A stretch of 64,000 nucleotides of DNA. Origin: Siccirubricoccus phaeus (lineage in GTDB: Bacteria; Pseudomonadota; Alphaproteobacteria; Acetobacterales; Acetobacteraceae). A program made the position numbers and the translations under genes. Each line of letters opens with the position of its first letter. Position 1 is the stretch's first letter. This document shows positions 51,600-58,226 of the stretch, piece by piece. Below the pieces are notes generated by a model, which had not been told where the DNA came from, searched no databases, and saw only the letters and a program-made list of their open reading frames with translations. The stretch spans positions 1 through 64,000 of the forward strand of contig NZ_SRXO01000005.1 in NCBI RefSeq assembly GCF_008360935.1. The letters are read 5' to 3'.

Positions 51600-52679
51600 C
51601 TACTCCGCCGCCTCCGCCGGTGCCGGCTCCGACATACGCGGAATCACCTCCCCCGCGAAGCGGCGGATGGTCTCGTGCCGCACGGCGCGCGGCACGCCAT
51701 AGGTGGCGTTGCTGATGAGGAAGTAGTTGAAGCCCAGCGCCGCGATCTGCCGCAGCCGCCGCGTGACGGTCTCCGCCGAGCCGACCAGGTTCATCGCCAG
51801 GTAGGGGCCGAGATTGGCCGGATCCGACAGCGAGCGCAGATTGGCGAACATCTTGTTGAATTGCTGGTAGCCCGGGATGTCGCCCCAGGGCGCGTCGTCG
51901 GATTGGTAGTGCCGCACCTGCAGGGCGAAGAATTCCGGCAGGTGCCGCAGCGCCTGCTCCCGCGCTGCCTCGTCGGTCTCCGCCACGAAGCATTTGATGG
52001 AGATGGGGAAGGTGGCGTCGGCATCGCCGCCCGCCTCGGCGGTCTTCGCCTTCCAGGTGTCGAGGATGCGCTTCAGCAGATGGTCGGGGAAGGAGGAGAG
52101 GCAGAGCGGCGGCAGGCCGAGCCCCGCCATGATGCCGGCGCTCTCCAGGCTGCCGATGGCGCCGTAGAAATTCGGCCGGCGGTCGAAGCGCGGCCGCAGG
52201 GTGATGCCCTCGCCCAGCTCGCCGGTTGCCATCGCCCCCCGCAGCATCTCCCAGCAGTCGCGGAAGCGGTCGCGGGCGGTCGCCATCGGGATGCCGAAGG
52301 CGTCGTATTCGGATTTCGCCGTGCCGCGGCCCATGCCGATATGCAGCTCGCCCTCGGTCAGGCTCTGCAGCATCGCCAGGTCCTCGGCGAAGCGCCGCGG
52401 TTCGTACCAGGGCAGCACCATCACCGCGGTGCCGAGGCCGAGCCCGGGGCAGGCGGCAGCGATATGCGACAGGAACAGCAGCGGGTTGGGCTGCGGGTAG
52501 TAGTCGCTGAAATGGTGCTCCACCATCCAGGCCGCGTCATAGCCCTGCTCCTGCAGCAGCACGGCGTCGGCGATGGCTTCGCGGTACAGGGCGCGGTCGC
52601 TGCTCCCCGCCTCGCCCACCGCGCCGATCTGGTAGGCATAGCGCAGGCGCGGGGCGGCCTGCCGTTGCGGATTTGCCAT
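51600..52679 (-). CDS. LLM-class (luciferase-like) flavin-dependent monooxygenase
   Basis: A 359-residue luciferase-family TIM barrel: DAAWMVEHHFSDYYPQPNPLLFLSHIAAACPGLGLGTAVMVLPWYEPRRFAEDLAMLQSLTEGELHIGMGRGTAKSEYDAFGI. The EHHF and GMGRG motifs are those of FMN-using alkanal monooxygenase-like members more than of F420 members. Next to it are a ModA-like protein and a sulfurtransferase, so an organosulfur or related substrate is possible (inference). It is divergent from an F420-type relative across 159 bases. Confidence 0.87.
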   Translation of the reverse strand: MANPQRQAAPRLRYAYQIGAVGEAGSSDRALYREAIADAVLLQEQGYDAAWMVEHHFSDYYPQPNPLLFLSHIAAACPGLGLGTAVMVLPWYEPRRFAEDLAMLQSLTEGELHIGMGRGTAKSEYDAFGIPMATARDRFRDCWEMLRGAMATGELGEGITLRPRFDRRPNFYGAIGSLESAGIMAGLGLPPLCLSSFPDHLLKRILDTWKAKTAEAGGDADATFPISIKCFVAETDEAAREQALRHLPEFFALQVRHYQSDDAPWGDIPGYQQFNKMFANLRSLSDPANLGPYLAMNLVGSAETVTRRLRQIAALGFNYFLISNATYGVPRAVRHETIRRFAGEVIPRMSEPAPAEAAE

Positions 52680-52838
52680 GACGGCCCTCCCAGGGGAATG
52701 TTGTTGGCGACACTGGTTGCGGGCAGGCTGCGGCCGGTCCCGCGGCGAGTCAACGCCCCGGGGGGCATGGCGCGGCGCTTCTTGCGGGAATCGCCCGGCA
52801 TGCCGACATGCCGACGGCTTGGGATGGGAGAGACAGTC

Positions 52839-53753
52839 ATGGCACAGCAGGGCATGGCACAACCAGGCCAGGGGTTGGCAGGTCAGGCGTCGGCAGGTCA
52901 GGCGCTGGGGCGCCTCGGGGTCTGGACCTCGACCGACAGGCTGGACGCGGTGGGGCTGAAATCCCTGCTGCAGACCATCGAGGGGCTGGGCTATTCCGCC
53001 TTCTGGTATCCGGAATCCCGCGGCTATGAATCCATGGCCCTCGGCAGCTTCCTGCTGGCGAATTCCACGAAGCTCATGGTCGGCAGCTCCATCGCCAATA
53101 TCTATGCGCGGGATGCCTTCACCGCGCAGCGGGGCGCCGCCACGCTGAACGCGCTGCATGGCGGGCGCTTCATCCTCGGCCTCGGCGTCAGCCACATCCC
53201 GATGGTGGAGGGGCTGCGCGGCCATCGCTACGACAAGCCCATCCCCGCCATGCGCGCCTATCTGGACGGCATGGACAAGGCGGGGGAGGAGAAGCTGCCG
53301 GTGGTCCTCGCCGCGCTGGGGCCGAAGATGCTGGAGCTGGCCGCCGCCCGCACCCAGGGTGCCGTGCCCTACAACGTGACCCCGGAGCATACCGCCCTGG
53401 CGGCGAAGATCCTCGGCCCGGGCAAGATCCTGGCGGTGGAGCAGAAAATCTGCCTGGAGACGGACAAGGCGAAGGCCCGCGCCCTCGGGAGGGCCGAGCT
53501 GGCGCGCTACATGACCTTGCCGAATTACGTGAACAATTGGCTGCGCCTGGGCTTCACCGAGGCCGATCTGGCCAATGGCGGCAATGACCGCTTCATCGAC
53601 GCCATGGTGCTGTCCGGCGATGCCGAGACGGTGAAGGCAGGCCTCCGCGCCCATTTCGCCGCCGGCGCCACCCATGTGGCGATCCAGCCGGTGGTGGCGG
53701 AAGGCGACCATGCCGGGCGGCAGGCCGCGCTGGCGGCCCTGGCGGATACCTGA
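52839..53753 (+). CDS. LLM-class F420-dependent oxidoreductase
   Basis: A 304-residue luciferase-fold enzyme. [82 protein letters not shown] and the [14 protein letters not shown] segment match the F420-type subfamily annotated in actinobacteria (TIGR03620-like, from memory). GGGAGAG precedes ATG 52839. The first 22 residues are a Gln/Gly/Ala-rich extension built from short repeats. It opens the plus-strand run that continues with the FGD homologue and cofEDC, so F420 is the likely cofactor. Substrate unknown. Confidence 0.82.
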
Positions 53754-53796: not shown

Positions 53797-54801
53797 ATGC
53801 TCAAGCTCGGCTACAAGGCCTCGGCCGAACAATTCGCGCCCGGCACGCTGCTGGATTTCGCCGTGCAGGCGGAAGCCGCCGGTTTCGAGTCCTGCTTCAT
53901 CTCGGACCATTTCCAGCCCTGGAAGCATACGGATGGGCATGCGCCGAATTCCCTGGTCTGGCTGGGGGCGCTGGGCGCGCGCACGACGAAGCTGGTGATG
54001 GGCACCTCGGTGCTGACGCCGACCTTCCGCTACCACCCCTCCATCGTCGCCCAGGCCTTCGGGACATTGGGCGCCATGTTCCCCGGCCGCGTCATCCTCG
54101 GCATCGGCACCGGGGAGGGGCTGAACGAGGTGCCCTCCACCGGCGCCCCCTGGCCGGAATTCAAGGAACGCTTCGCCCGGATGCGCGAGGCCGTCACCCT
54201 GATGCGCAAGCTCTGGACCGAGGAGCGGGTGAGCTTCGAGGGCCAGTACTACAGGACCGAGAAGGCGACGATCTATGACCGGCCGGCCGCGCCGCTGCCG
54301 ATCTACGTCGCGGCGGCCGGCGCGCTGGTGGCGAAATATGCCGGCCGGCAGGGCGATGGCTTCGTCTGCACCAGCGGCAAGAAGCCGGAGCTCTATACCG
54401 AGACGCTGCTGCCCAATGTCGCCGCGGGGCTGGACGCCGCGGGCACCCCGAAGCCGGACTATGACCGGATGATCGAGGTGAAGGTCAGCTTCGACACCGA
54501 GAAGCAGCGCGCGCTGGAGGATACCCGCCACTGGGCGGCGCTGGCCCTCTCGCCCGAGGAGAAGATGTCGGTCGAGGACCCGGTGGAGATGGAGAAGCTG
54601 GCGGATTCCCTGCCGCTGGAACGCGCCGCCAGCCGCTGGATCGTCTCCGCCGATCCGGAGGAGATGGTGGAGCGCATCGGCTATTATGTGGGGCTGGGCT
54701 TCAACCACCTGGTCTTCCACGCGCCCGGCCCGGATCAGGGGCGCTTCCTCAAGCTGTTCGGCGAGCAGGTGGCGCCGCTGCTGCGCCGGCGCTTCGGCTA
54801 G
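53797..54801 (+). CDS. fgd: F420-dependent glucose-6-phosphate dehydrogenase homologue (FGD)
   Basis: A 334-residue protein that aligns almost end to end with mycobacterial FGD1: [12 protein letters not shown] (4-15), SDHFQPWKH (36-44), [39 protein letters not shown] and GTGEGLNE (104-111). F420-facing Asp37, His38, Trp42 and Glu107 are kept. The residues that hold the sugar phosphate in FGD1 (Lys198, Lys259, Arg283) have counterparts Lys195, Lys256 and Arg280. It should reduce F420 with glucose 6-phosphate or another sugar phosphate. It lies 43 bases after the LLM gene and 116 before cofE. FGD is best known from actinobacteria, so lateral origin is possible. Confidence 0.85.
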
Positions 54802-54917
54802 CGTGGCCGATGGCGGCCTCCCCCCGCCCGGCGCTGGCCGGGGCATCCGCCCGATGAGTCGGGTGGGCGGGCCCGGCCTTGACGCAGGCACGCCCCGGCG
54901 ATGATGACGGCCTGACC

Positions 54918-55664
54918 ATGCGCCAGCTCGCCCTCCACGCCCTGCCCGGCCTGCCGCCAATCCAGGCCGGCGACGATCTCGCGGCGCTGATCGCGGCCGG
55001 CCTCGCCCGCGCCGGGCTGGCGGTGCAGCCGGGCGATGTGCTGGTCGTCGCGCAGAAGATCGTCAGCAAGGCGGAGGGCCGCGCGGTGCGGCTGGCGGAG
55101 GTGTCGCCCTCCGCTGCCGCCATCGCCCTGGCGGCGGAGACGGGGAAGGACCCCCGGCTGGTCGAGCTGATCCTGCGCGATGCGGTACGCGTCGTCCGCT
55201 CCCGCCCCAACCTCATCATCGTCGAGCACAGGCTCGGCTTCGTCATGGCGAATGGCGGGCTGGACCAGTCGAACGTCGTAGGACCGGAGCAGGAGCCGCA
55301 GGCGCTGCTGCTGCCGGTGGACCCCGACGGTTCCGCGGCTTCGCTCAGCGCCGCGCTCGGCCTGCCCGTCGTCATCAGCGACAGCTTCGGCCGGGCCTGG
55401 CGGCGCGGCACGGTGGGGGTGGCGATCGGCGCCGCCGGCCTGCCTTCGCTGGTCGATCTGCGCGGCCAGCCGGATATGTTCGGCCGCACCCTGCATGTCA
55501 GCCTGACCGGCTTCGCCGACGAGATCGCCGCCGCCGCCGGCCTGCTGATGGGGCAGGGGGCGGAGGCGCAGCCGGTGGTGCTGCTCCGCGGGCTGGAATG
55601 GACGGCGCCGCCCAACCCTGCCGCCACCCTCGTCCGTCCTGCGAGCGAAGACCTGTTCCGATGA
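54918..55664 (+). CDS. cofE: Coenzyme F420-0:L-glutamate ligase
   Basis: A 248-residue enzyme that adds gamma-linked glutamates to F420-0 using GTP. LPGLPPIQAGDDLAALIAAGL, GDVLVVAQKIVSKAEGRAVRL (39-59), LILRDAVRVVRSRPNLIIVEHRLGFVMANGGLDQSNV and ISDSFGRAWRRGTVGVAIGAAGL are the family marks. It is the stand-alone CofE form, without the nitroreductase-like second domain of actinobacterial FbiB. ATG 54918 is chosen; an upstream TTG frame is rejected. Its stop overlaps cofD. Confidence 0.93.
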   Translation: MRQLALHALPGLPPIQAGDDLAALIAAGLARAGLAVQPGDVLVVAQKIVSKAEGRAVRLAEVSPSAAAIALAAETGKDPRLVELILRDAVRVVRSRPNLIIVEHRLGFVMANGGLDQSNVVGPEQEPQALLLPVDPDGSAASLSAALGLPVVISDSFGRAWRRGTVGVAIGAAGLPSLVDLRGQPDMFGRTLHVSLTGFADEIAAAAGLLMGQGAEAQPVVLLRGLEWTAPPNPAATLVRPASEDLFR

Positions 55665-56656
55665 TCGCGTCCGATCGCGGAGGGCCGAAGGCCCAGAGCG
55701 TGAACCGGCCGCGGCCGCCGTCAGGCGGCACGGTGCTTGCACTGTCCGGCGGCATTGGCGGCGCCAAGCTGGCGCTCGGCCTCTCCCATGTCCTGCCGCC
55801 GGAGCAGCTCACCATCCTCGCCAATACCGGCGATGATTTCGAGCATCTCGGCCTCGCCATCTCCCCCGATCTCGACACGCTGATGTACACCCTGGCGGGG
55901 CTCGACAACCCGGAGACCGGCTGGGGCCGCCGCGACGAGAGCTGGGCCTTCATGGAGGCGGTGGGCGCGCTGGGCGGCGCCACCTGGTTCCGCCTCGGCG
56001 ACCGCGACCTGGCTACGCATGTGGAGCGCACGCGGCGGCTGCGCGGCGGCGAGACGCTCTCCGCCATCACCGCGGAGTTCTGCCGCCGCCTCGGCGCCCG
56101 CCCGCGCATCCTGCCGATGAGCGACGATCCGGTGCGGACGCGGGTGCTGACCATCCAGGGCTGGGTGGATTTCCAGGATTGGTTCGTCGGCCAGCAGGCG
56201 CGGCCCGCCATCCGCGCGGTGCAATTCCGTGGCGCCAGGGACGCCGCGCCGCAGCCGGAGGCCATGGCGCTGCTGGCCAGCGGCACGGTGCGCGCCGTGG
56301 TGATCTGCCCCTCCAACCCGCTCATCAGCATCGAGCCGATCCTGGCGGTGCCGGGGCTGCGCGACGCCATCCGGGACTGCGGCGCGCCGGTCATCGCCGT
56401 CTCCCCCATCATCGGCGGGCAGGCGGTGAAGGGGCCGACGGCGAAGATGCTCTCCGAATTGGGCGAGGCGGTCTCTGCCGCTGGCGTCGCGCGGCGCTAT
56501 GGCGAGCTGCTGACCGGCTACGTCATGGAACCGGCGGATGACGCCACCGGCATCGCCGCCCGGGTGTTCCGCGCGCCCACGCTGATGCGCGGCCTGCCGG
56601 ACAAGATCGCCCTGGCCCAGGCGGTGCTGGCGGCCGCCGAGGCCTGCCGCGCATGA
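55661..56656 (+). CDS. cofD: 2-phospho-L-lactate transferase
   Basis: A 331-residue enzyme joining the lactyl (or analogous) phosphate unit to the deazaflavin Fo to make F420-0 (or dehydro-F420-0). VLALSGGIGGAKLALGL (26-41), ANTGDDFEHLGLAISPDLDTLMYTLAGL (54-81), WFRLGDRDLATHVERT and PSNPLISIEPILAVPG followed by SPIIGGQAVKGPTAKM are diagnostic. The first 22 residues are an extension. ATG overlaps the cofE stop, and the end overlaps cofC, so the three are translationally coupled. Confidence 0.95.
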   Translation: MIASDRGGPKAQSVNRPRPPSGGTVLALSGGIGGAKLALGLSHVLPPEQLTILANTGDDFEHLGLAISPDLDTLMYTLAGLDNPETGWGRRDESWAFMEAVGALGGATWFRLGDRDLATHVERTRRLRGGETLSAITAEFCRRLGARPRILPMSDDPVRTRVLTIQGWVDFQDWFVGQQARPAIRAVQFRGARDAAPQPEAMALLASGTVRAVVICPSNPLISIEPILAVPGLRDAIRDCGAPVIAVSPIIGGQAVKGPTAKMLSELGEAVSAAGVARRYGELLTGYVMEPADDATGIAARVFRAPTLMRGLPDKIALAQAVLAAAEACRA

Positions 56657-57303
56657 GCAGCATCTGGGCCGTGCTGCCGGTGAAGGAGTTGGAGGGGGCG
56701 AAGCAGCGCCTCTCCCCCCGCCTGTCCTCCGCGCAGCGTCAGGCGCTGATGCGGCTGATGATCGGGGAGGTGCTGGCGGCCCTCGCCGCCGCCAGGGGCC
56801 TGGCCGGCATCGCCCTGGTCACGCTGGACCCCTGGGCGACGGAGCAGGCGCGGCGAATCGGCGCAAGGGTGATCACCGAGGGCGCGCGGGACGGGCATAC
56901 CGGCAGCGTCACCGCCGCCGCCCGCATCCTGGCGGCGGAAGGGCAGGGGATGCTGACCCTGCCGGGCGACATCCCCGCCATCACCGCCGCGGAGGTCGAG
57001 GCGCTGCTGGCCGCGCATGGCGAAGCGCCCGCCTTCACCATCGCCCCGGCGCATGATCTGCAAGGATCGAACGCCATCATCCTGACGCCGCCTCTGGCCG
57101 TGCCGCTGCGCTTCGGGGAGGACAGCTACACCCCCCACCTCGCCGCGGCCCGGGCGAAGGGGATCGAGCCGCGGATCGTCCCCCTGCCGGGGATCGCCAT
57201 GGATATCGACAACCCGGCGGACCTGGACGCGCTGGCCCGCCTGCCCGAAGCGGCGGGAACGCGGAGCCTGGCCTGGCTGCGGGCGGAAGGGCTGGTGGAA
57301 TAG
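56653..57303 (+). CDS. cofC: 2-phospho-L-lactate guanylyltransferase
   Basis: A 216-residue nucleotidyltransferase-like protein (CofC/FbiD) that activates 2-phospholactate, phosphoenolpyruvate or 3-phosphoglycerate with GTP for CofD. Motifs: PVKELEGAKQRLSP (9-22), LPGDIPAI, and GSNAIILTPPLAVPLRFGEDSYTPHL. In proteobacteria the substrate may differ between lineages; the sequence alone does not decide. Four-base overlap with cofD completes the cofEDC order. Confidence 0.93.
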   Translation: MSSIWAVLPVKELEGAKQRLSPRLSSAQRQALMRLMIGEVLAALAAARGLAGIALVTLDPWATEQARRIGARVITEGARDGHTGSVTAAARILAAEGQGMLTLPGDIPAITAAEVEALLAAHGEAPAFTIAPAHDLQGSNAIILTPPLAVPLRFGEDSYTPHLAAARAKGIEPRIVPLPGIAMDIDNPADLDALARLPEAAGTRSLAWLRAEGLVE

Positions 57304-57656
57304 CGCGCGATCGGCCTGATACCCACGGCCTTGATCGCTGACTCAGGCAGGGCGTTCTCCGCCGCGGCCTGCAAGCCTGGTGCCGGCCAGCGAATCGGCC
57401 CCGTTGGCATGAGCCTGCGCACCGGAGATGGGCACGGCTCGGGCCGTGAATCGCCGACGCAGGAATGGCTGGGGATCGGCCGGCACGGTCGGGCCGATAG
57501 GGGGTCGGCGCAGGAATGGCTGGGCTCCTATCAGCCTGGTACGGTCGGGCCGGTAGGGGGCCGGCGCGCGCGCGCCGGAGGACGGGAACGCCAGGGTGCC
57601 GAAACAGCGCCCGGCGGGGCTTCACGCCGGGCGCCGGCGACCCCACACTTCCGGGC
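57304..57656. repeat. Gap with an imperfect tandem duplication
   Basis: No gene. Two adjacent copies of a 51/56-base unit lie at 57458-57508 and 57509-57564, both starting CGCAGGAATGGCTGGG and ending with ACGGTCGGGCC(G) and TAGGGGG. The second copy has a 5-base insertion. The stretch lies between cofC and the TetR-type gene and could be that gene's operator region. Confidence 0.65.
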
Positions 57657-58226
57657 ATGAGCGACGAGACCGATACCAAGCTGGTCACTGGCCTGTGGCA
57701 GGTGGTGGCGGCCCATGGCTGGCACGGGGTGACGATGCGCCGCATCGCCGAGGCCAGCGGCGTGGCGCCGGCGGAGATCCGGCGCCGCTGCCCGGGGCCG
57801 CTGGCGCTGCTATGCCTGCACGGGCGGGTGGTGGACCAGCTTGTGCTGGAAGGGACGGTGGCGGACCCGACCAGCAGCGCGCGGGACCGCCTCTTCGACG
57901 TCATCATGCGCCGAATCGACGCCATGCAGCCCCACCGGGAGGGCGTGCTGCGGCTGCTGCGGGATGTGCGGCGGGATCCGCTGCTGGGGCTGTTCCTGCT
58001 GACGGCGCTGCCGCGCTCCATGGCCTGGATGCTAGAAGCGGCGGGGATCAGCACGGCCGGGCTGCCGGGGCTGGCGCGGGCCAAGGGGCTGACGGCGGTG
58101 TGGCTGGCGACGATGCGGGCCTGGGAGAAGGATGCCAGCACCGATCTGGGCGCCACCATGGCGGCGCTGGACCGGGCGCTGGACCGGGCGGAGCAGGTGG
58201 CGAAGGCTGTCAGGTTGCCGGAATAG
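57657..58226 (+). CDS. TetR-family transcriptional regulator
   Basis: A 189-residue regulator. The N-terminal helix-turn-helix (LWQVVAAHGWHGVTMRRIAEASGVAPAEIRRRCPGPLALLC, about 13-53) fits TetR although the usual Tyr/Phe after the recognition helix is replaced. The C-terminal helical domain (RDRLFDVIMRRIDAMQPHREGVLRLLRDVRRDP) resembles COQ9-like/TetR C-domains that bind ligand. It follows the F420 genes on the same strand after a gap with duplicated sequence, so it may control them or itself; this is inference. Confidence 0.75.
   Translation: MSDETDTKLVTGLWQVVAAHGWHGVTMRRIAEASGVAPAEIRRRCPGPLALLCLHGRVVDQLVLEGTVADPTSSARDRLFDVIMRRIDAMQPHREGVLRLLRDVRRDPLLGLFLLTALPRSMAWMLEAAGISTAGLPGLARAKGLTAVWLATMRAWEKDASTDLGATMAALDRALDRAEQVAKAVRLPE

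Follow-up and report, generated by a model that had tools for sequence, protein, structure and literature searches.

The gene fgd of Siccirubricoccus phaeus, which lies in the 64,000-nucleotide stretch of contig NZ_SRXO01000005.1 analyzed here (the window), most likely codes for an enzyme that oxidizes a sugar phosphate and reduces coenzyme F420, as judged from sequence comparisons. The explanation that we favor, at a probability of roughly 0.85, is that the product would be an F420-dependent glucose-6-phosphate dehydrogenase (FGD) that oxidizes glucose 6-phosphate (G6P), is served by the bacterium's own F420 supply, and passes F420H2 to enzymes of the luciferase-like monooxygenase (LLM) and FDOR classes. 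In the NCBIfam search, the fgd product scores 483.3 bits against TIGR03554 (glucose-6-phosphate dehydrogenase, coenzyme F420), where the cut-off is 420. It also exceeds the cut-off of the broader subfamily TIGR03557, and these two are the only models over their cut-offs among the 25 families shown (31 matched). The closest solved sequences found by phmmer are 5lxe, the FGD of Rhodococcus jostii (3.3e-137), and 3b4y, FGD1 of Mycobacterium tuberculosis (1.2e-136). Overall, the product is ∼60% identical to characterized FGDs, with 58.9% for the R. jostii pRHL3 copy and 59–60% for FGD1.

In a MAFFT alignment with the corresponding part of 3b4y, Asp37, His38, Trp42, and Glu107 of the query align with Asp39, His40, Trp44, and Glu109 of FGD1, which we take to be its active site, as the original prediction also did. 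Lys195, Lys256, and Arg280 align with Lys198, Lys259, and Arg283, such that all seven residues cited in that prediction are present and paired with FGD1 as claimed. The offset from the 3b4y chain to FGD1 numbering is our assumption, and it reproduces the Lys198, Lys259, and Arg283 named in the literature. All seven residues are kept in each of 80 relatives (L009–L088), the best 80 of 576 confirmed and close to the query at 74–94% identity. They are likewise kept in eight more alphaproteobacterial rows over the TIGR03554 cut-off (L096 among them being identical to L052), for a sum of 88/88, and in 8/8 actinobacterial rows, where 5lxe and L115 represent one R. jostii enzyme. The Lys-Lys-Arg set is incomplete in 25/25 other LLM rows of the same alignment, the positions reading Ala-Lys-Asn in Adf, Asp-gap-Asn in fHMAD, and, among the TIGR03557 controls, Lys-Met-Gln in a paralog from the same genome (L002) and Asn-Lys-Arg in a Thermomicrobium protein. 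Because it is complete only in the FGD rows, the clamp marks the FGD group in this sample, and the earlier statement that most LLM-fold proteins lack it holds here. In FGD1 these three residues form the phosphate pocket (PMC5352752).

The predicted structure agrees with this assignment at the level of the fold. The AlphaFold2 model, built from 21 sequences, has a pLDDT of 84.6, and its top Foldseek matches are the FGD1 structures 3c8n and 3b4y (TM score 0.89–0.91 by query length, 59–60% identity). The loops at residues 43–47 and 108–114, beside active-site residues, are poorly predicted (pLDDT <50), and for this reason we draw no active-site geometry from the model. Compared with FGD1 (Rv0407; 3b4y and 3c8n) and Rh-FGD1 of R. 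jostii (5lxe), the query shows 57–60% full-length identity in Foldseek (3c8n, 3b4y, and 5lxe chain A) and has the same catalytic and phosphate-binding residues and the same predicted fold. It differs from FGD1 by Ala174 in place of Gly177 and by one residue in length near position 113. Across the alignment, 13 near-fixed differences, gap columns included, separate the 88 alphaproteobacterial from the 8 actinobacterial rows. The FGD of Thermomicrobium roseum (9hav–9hay) is more distant, with the same fold at 38% identity and, in the phmmer alignment, no Lys at the position of query Lys195.

The Gly177 of FGD1 has been linked to its preference for G6P, and Ser occupies this position in the F420-dependent sugar-6-phosphate dehydrogenases (FSDs) of Nocardioidaceae and Cryptosporangium, which belong to the same family as the query (PMC6279831). 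The phosphate clamp is reported to be common to FGD and FSD and does not tell them apart (PMC6279831). The query has neither Gly nor Ser at this position, and Ala is found in 84 of the 88 alphaproteobacterial rows (Gly in 2, Ser in 2). Since the clamp is common to both kinds of enzyme and the specificity position carries Ala, an FSD-like enzyme of broader specificity, oxidizing several hexose 6-phosphates (G6P, fructose 6-phosphate, and mannose 6-phosphate) rather than acting as a strict FGD, is worth considering, though we think it less likely. The query passes the FGD equivalog cut-off of TIGR03554, and the nearest solved structures belong to enzymes reported to be G6P-specific (PMC6279831), in a comparison that included no FSD sequence. 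For the R. jostii FGD, turnover of fructose 6-phosphate and mannose 6-phosphate is reported as <2% of that of G6P (PMC6279831). Gly at 177 is a published specificity marker and no criterion of the TIGR03554 model, and FSD is set apart from the query here by its published description, not by an FSD sequence. The available portion of that article does not mention proteobacteria.

Phylogeny places the query with the FGDs, apart from TIGR03557 and Adf, and not in an unrelated LLM clade. Alphaproteobacterial and actinobacterial FGD rows together split from the TIGR03557 rows with support of 99 in a quick tree that included Adf, and with 100/100 in a careful tree from which Adf and other long rows were left out. 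The curated model, the residue pattern, and the tree placement thus confirm the original prediction of an FGD homolog, as far as sequence can do so; the group had already been predicted to carry Fgd. The trees speak less clearly on the proposal that fgd was gained laterally from actinobacteria, which we consider doubtful. At face value the careful tree suits it, as it unites 28 alphaproteobacterial rows in a single clade (98/86) and leaves six actinobacterial rows without firm order at the FGD base (64/48 as a group). The quick tree, with longer outgroups, gives the opposite nesting: the actinobacterial rows form a clade inside the alphaproteobacterial ones, sister to L092 (96), and here the program warned of long branches. 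The gene context differs as well. On three of four annotated Rhodococcus plasmid copies (L114, L115, and L116), fgd lies beside gnd, glpX, tkt, or pgi, which are pentose-phosphate genes, whereas in alphaproteobacteria it lies beside cofE, cofD, and cofC; the fourth copy (L117) has neither pentose-phosphate nor F420 genes next to it. The two trees differ, and their actinobacterial rows are all Mycobacteriales, so that together they favor neither direction of transfer. Viral contigs yielded a single partial relative, which was not used. That the product is instead a non-FGD luciferase-like oxidoreductase, of the alcohol or hydroxymycolate dehydrogenase type or FMN-dependent, with an incidental residue match, is very improbable: the superfamily is large here, with 38 places in the genome, that of the query among them, hit by the query at E ≤0.001, but the product falls far below the cut-off of the hydroxymycolic acid dehydrogenase model TIGR04465 (219 vs 470 bits) and below that of TIGR03885 (242 vs 398.7 bits), and the clamp is complete in FGD rows only.

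The genes around fgd are those expected of an F420 cluster. As Table 1 shows, the order in the window is LLM oxidoreductase, fgd, cofE, cofD, and cofC, all over their family cut-offs. The start of the LLM gene is inferred, with ATGs at 52824 and 52839 as other candidates, and the gene stops 43 bases upstream of fgd. For cofE, a TTG at 54879 is also possible in place of the ATG at 54918, and its product is too short to hold the C-terminal domain of FbiB. The cofE/cofD and cofD/cofC junctions are ATGA overlaps.

Table 1. Coordinates of fgd and the adjoining F420-related genes in the window
Feature	Position	Strand	Details
TIGR03620-family LLM oxidoreductase	52854..53753	+	287.1 bits, cut-off 219.8; possible F420H2 user
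fgd	53797..54801	+	ATG start, 334 aa, no internal stops (open reading frame)
cofE, F420-0:L-glutamate ligase	54918..55664	+	TIGR01916, 248.5 bits, cut-off 180.65
cofD, 2-phospho-L-lactate transferase	55661..56656	+	TIGR01819, 285.3 bits, cut-off 257.45
cofC/fbiD guanylyltransferase	56653..57303	+	TIGR03552, 129.7 bits, cut-off 105

This arrangement is shared by the relatives, whose loci were taken as up to 8 kb on each side of fgd; many end at contig edges, so that the following counts are lower bounds. Relatives of cofE occur on 78, of cofD on 70, and of cofC on 64 of the 80 FGD loci, and a relative of the TIGR03620 LLM protein (≥45% identity) occurs on 39; two short contigs (L080 and L088) hold none of the neighbor relatives. 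The remaining pathway gene, fbiC, accompanies fgd on 39/80 loci of the relatives, and on 34/50 of those that extend 7 kb or more downstream of fgd. The window's genome encodes FbiC, a CofGH fusion (1129.9 bits), on the same contig at C45:282847-285084. By a hand count on the alignment, CofC has Gly at the position where Ser marks 3PG-type enzymes, the Ser being diagnostic for 3PG-F420 (PMC8764529); ordinary F420 is therefore expected, and the residue argues against 3PG-F420 as the cofactor. On the fgd-fbiC loci of 35/80 relatives, a second, unassigned LLM protein recurs beside the F420 cluster (e.g., L036:14977-15960). A further LLM-class protein in the window (51600-52700, minus strand) falls short of the cut-off in each of the 20 NCBIfam models that it matches (best TIGR04027, 84 bits vs 412.9) and has a relative on 3/80 FGD loci. 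Downstream of cofC, a weak TetR-type regulator (57516-58226, plus strand; 23.1 bits, Pfam cut-off 24) has a relative on 1/80 loci. The link drawn in the original prediction to a neighboring phosphohexomutase gene did not hold up: PGM, UGD (UDP-glucose dehydrogenase), and GalU are found on the locus of one of the 80 relatives, the same-genus Siccirubricoccus soli. We regard this neighbor as incidental and not as a functional partner; on 50/80 loci, 7 kb or more of sequence was available on the downstream side of fgd.

The presence of F420 pathway genes together with an FGD supports the earlier proposal that this Gram-negative bacterium would have an F420-reducing system of its own. Of the two F420 reducers looked for, FGD and Fno, only FGD is present: the Fno model TIGR01915 gave no match in the window's genome at E 0.001, in a search that did not extend to hydrogenase or formate dehydrogenase reducers. 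The same model found matches in seven control genomes, three of them over the cut-off. Alphaproteobacteria had already been predicted to carry Fgd "in addition to Fno" (Grinter and Greening 2021, PMC8498797), and the window's genome differs from that description in having no Fno match at this threshold. In the proposed scheme, FGD would take a hydride from C1 of G6P, presumably its substrate and direction, to give 6-phosphogluconolactone and F420H2. The F420 would be made by the products of cofE, cofD, and cofC directly downstream and of fbiC elsewhere on the contig, and F420H2 would go to LLM-class oxidoreductases, perhaps the upstream one, and to an FDOR as the putative electron acceptors. 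One protein in the genome exceeds the F420H2_quin_red cut-off (133 bits), and it and the LLM relatives could be such users of F420H2.

Several observations weigh against this explanation. Besides the prevalent Ala at position 174, no FbiB C-terminal reductase (DF420 reductase) scores over the cut-off in the genome (best 30.3 bits vs 249.55), and the FDOR candidate, the F420H2_quin_red protein, matches no NCBIfam family at E 1e-10. A TIGR03557 paralog (L135:8342-9298, minus strand, 424.7 bits), with Lys-Met-Gln at the clamp positions, might be another F420 reducer or dehydrogenase. Finally, only trace F420 is recorded in the two alphaproteobacteria tested (PMC8498797).

The main lead concerns central sugar metabolism. 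The Zwf model TIGR00871, positive in 9 of 14 control genomes, finds no match in the window's genome (99.17% complete; 0 candidates at first look), and neither does Edd at E 1e-100. The genome does contain gnd (6-phosphogluconate dehydrogenase, TIGR00872; 375.9 bits vs 297.2). Because neither zwf nor edd is matched but gnd is present, FGD may be the sole glucose-6-phosphate dehydrogenase of this organism. Among 49 FGD-bearing genomes, reached through 50 of the 80 loci with L010 left out, many of them metagenome-assembled genomes (MAGs) and without stated completeness, zwf is present in 23 and missing from 26. Of the 18 not titled MAG, seven are without a zwf match, namely, Paeniroseomonas aquatica, Belnapia mucosa, Siccirubricoccus deserti, Paracraurococcus ruber, Caldovatus aquaticus, Caldovatus sediminis, and strain SYSU D60007.

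The comparison was extended to 200 genomes sampled from the family, requested at 90% completeness. FGD over the cut-off is found in 47 of them, compared with 9 of 385 sampled alphaproteobacterial genomes (the window's genome is in both sets). With zwf called at E 0.001 (141 of 142 over the cut-off), 22 family genomes have both FGD and zwf, 25 FGD only, 120 zwf only, and 33 neither (Fisher p 8e-5, uncorrected for kinship). Of the 58 genomes without zwf, those with FGD carry gnd, called at E 1e-15 or better, in 25/25 cases vs 17/33 for those without FGD (p 2e-5, uncorrected for kinship), and Edd is present in none of the 58; ten genomes with weaker gnd matches, all zwf-positive, were scored as lacking it. 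By genus, 9 of the 27 with FGD are entirely zwf-less, 14 entirely zwf-positive, and 4 mixed, including that of the window. In 16 of the 200 genomes, all four models (zwf, edd, gnd, and FGD) are without a match at the thresholds applied, and in these no oxidative route from G6P is recognized.

A role of FGD as the source of 6-phosphogluconate in genomes without Zwf would fit this pattern; the pattern is not strict, and the relatives are not independent. A strict exchange of FGD for Zwf was rejected as a rule, since 22 of the 47 FGD genomes have zwf too, including that of S. soli, and 33 zwf-less family genomes are also without FGD. Retention of gnd, considered as proof of the FGD route, was weakened likewise, because 17 of the 33 genomes with neither zwf nor FGD keep gnd, and a gluconate kinase could feed it. 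We therefore put forward tentatively, at somewhat less than even odds, that in some Acetobacteraceae, including this organism, FGD may have replaced the NADP-dependent Zwf and be the sole glucose-6-phosphate dehydrogenase. The oxidative branch of the pentose phosphate pathway would then run from FGD to Gnd, its first step giving F420H2 and not NADPH. We found no report of F420-dependent G6P oxidation replacing Zwf in alphaproteobacteria in a literature search that covered mostly open-access articles and is weak evidence of absence.

As of 2021, no F420-reducing dehydrogenase from bacteria outside the actinobacteria had been experimentally investigated (PMC8498797), and the Thermomicrobium FGD structures have been deposited since that review. 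We see the missing Zwf as the main lead and the Ala174 substitution as the second point. The isolates that carry fgd but lack a zwf match (S. deserti, B. mucosa, P. ruber, P. aquatica, and the two Caldovatus species) offer a direct test of F420 in central sugar oxidation. If the replacement of Zwf is borne out, F420 would act as a cofactor in the central carbon metabolism of Gram-negative bacteria without the standard glucose-6-phosphate dehydrogenase, used by an enzyme whose sugar pocket is perhaps altered by the Gly-to-Ala change across the alphaproteobacterial FGDs.
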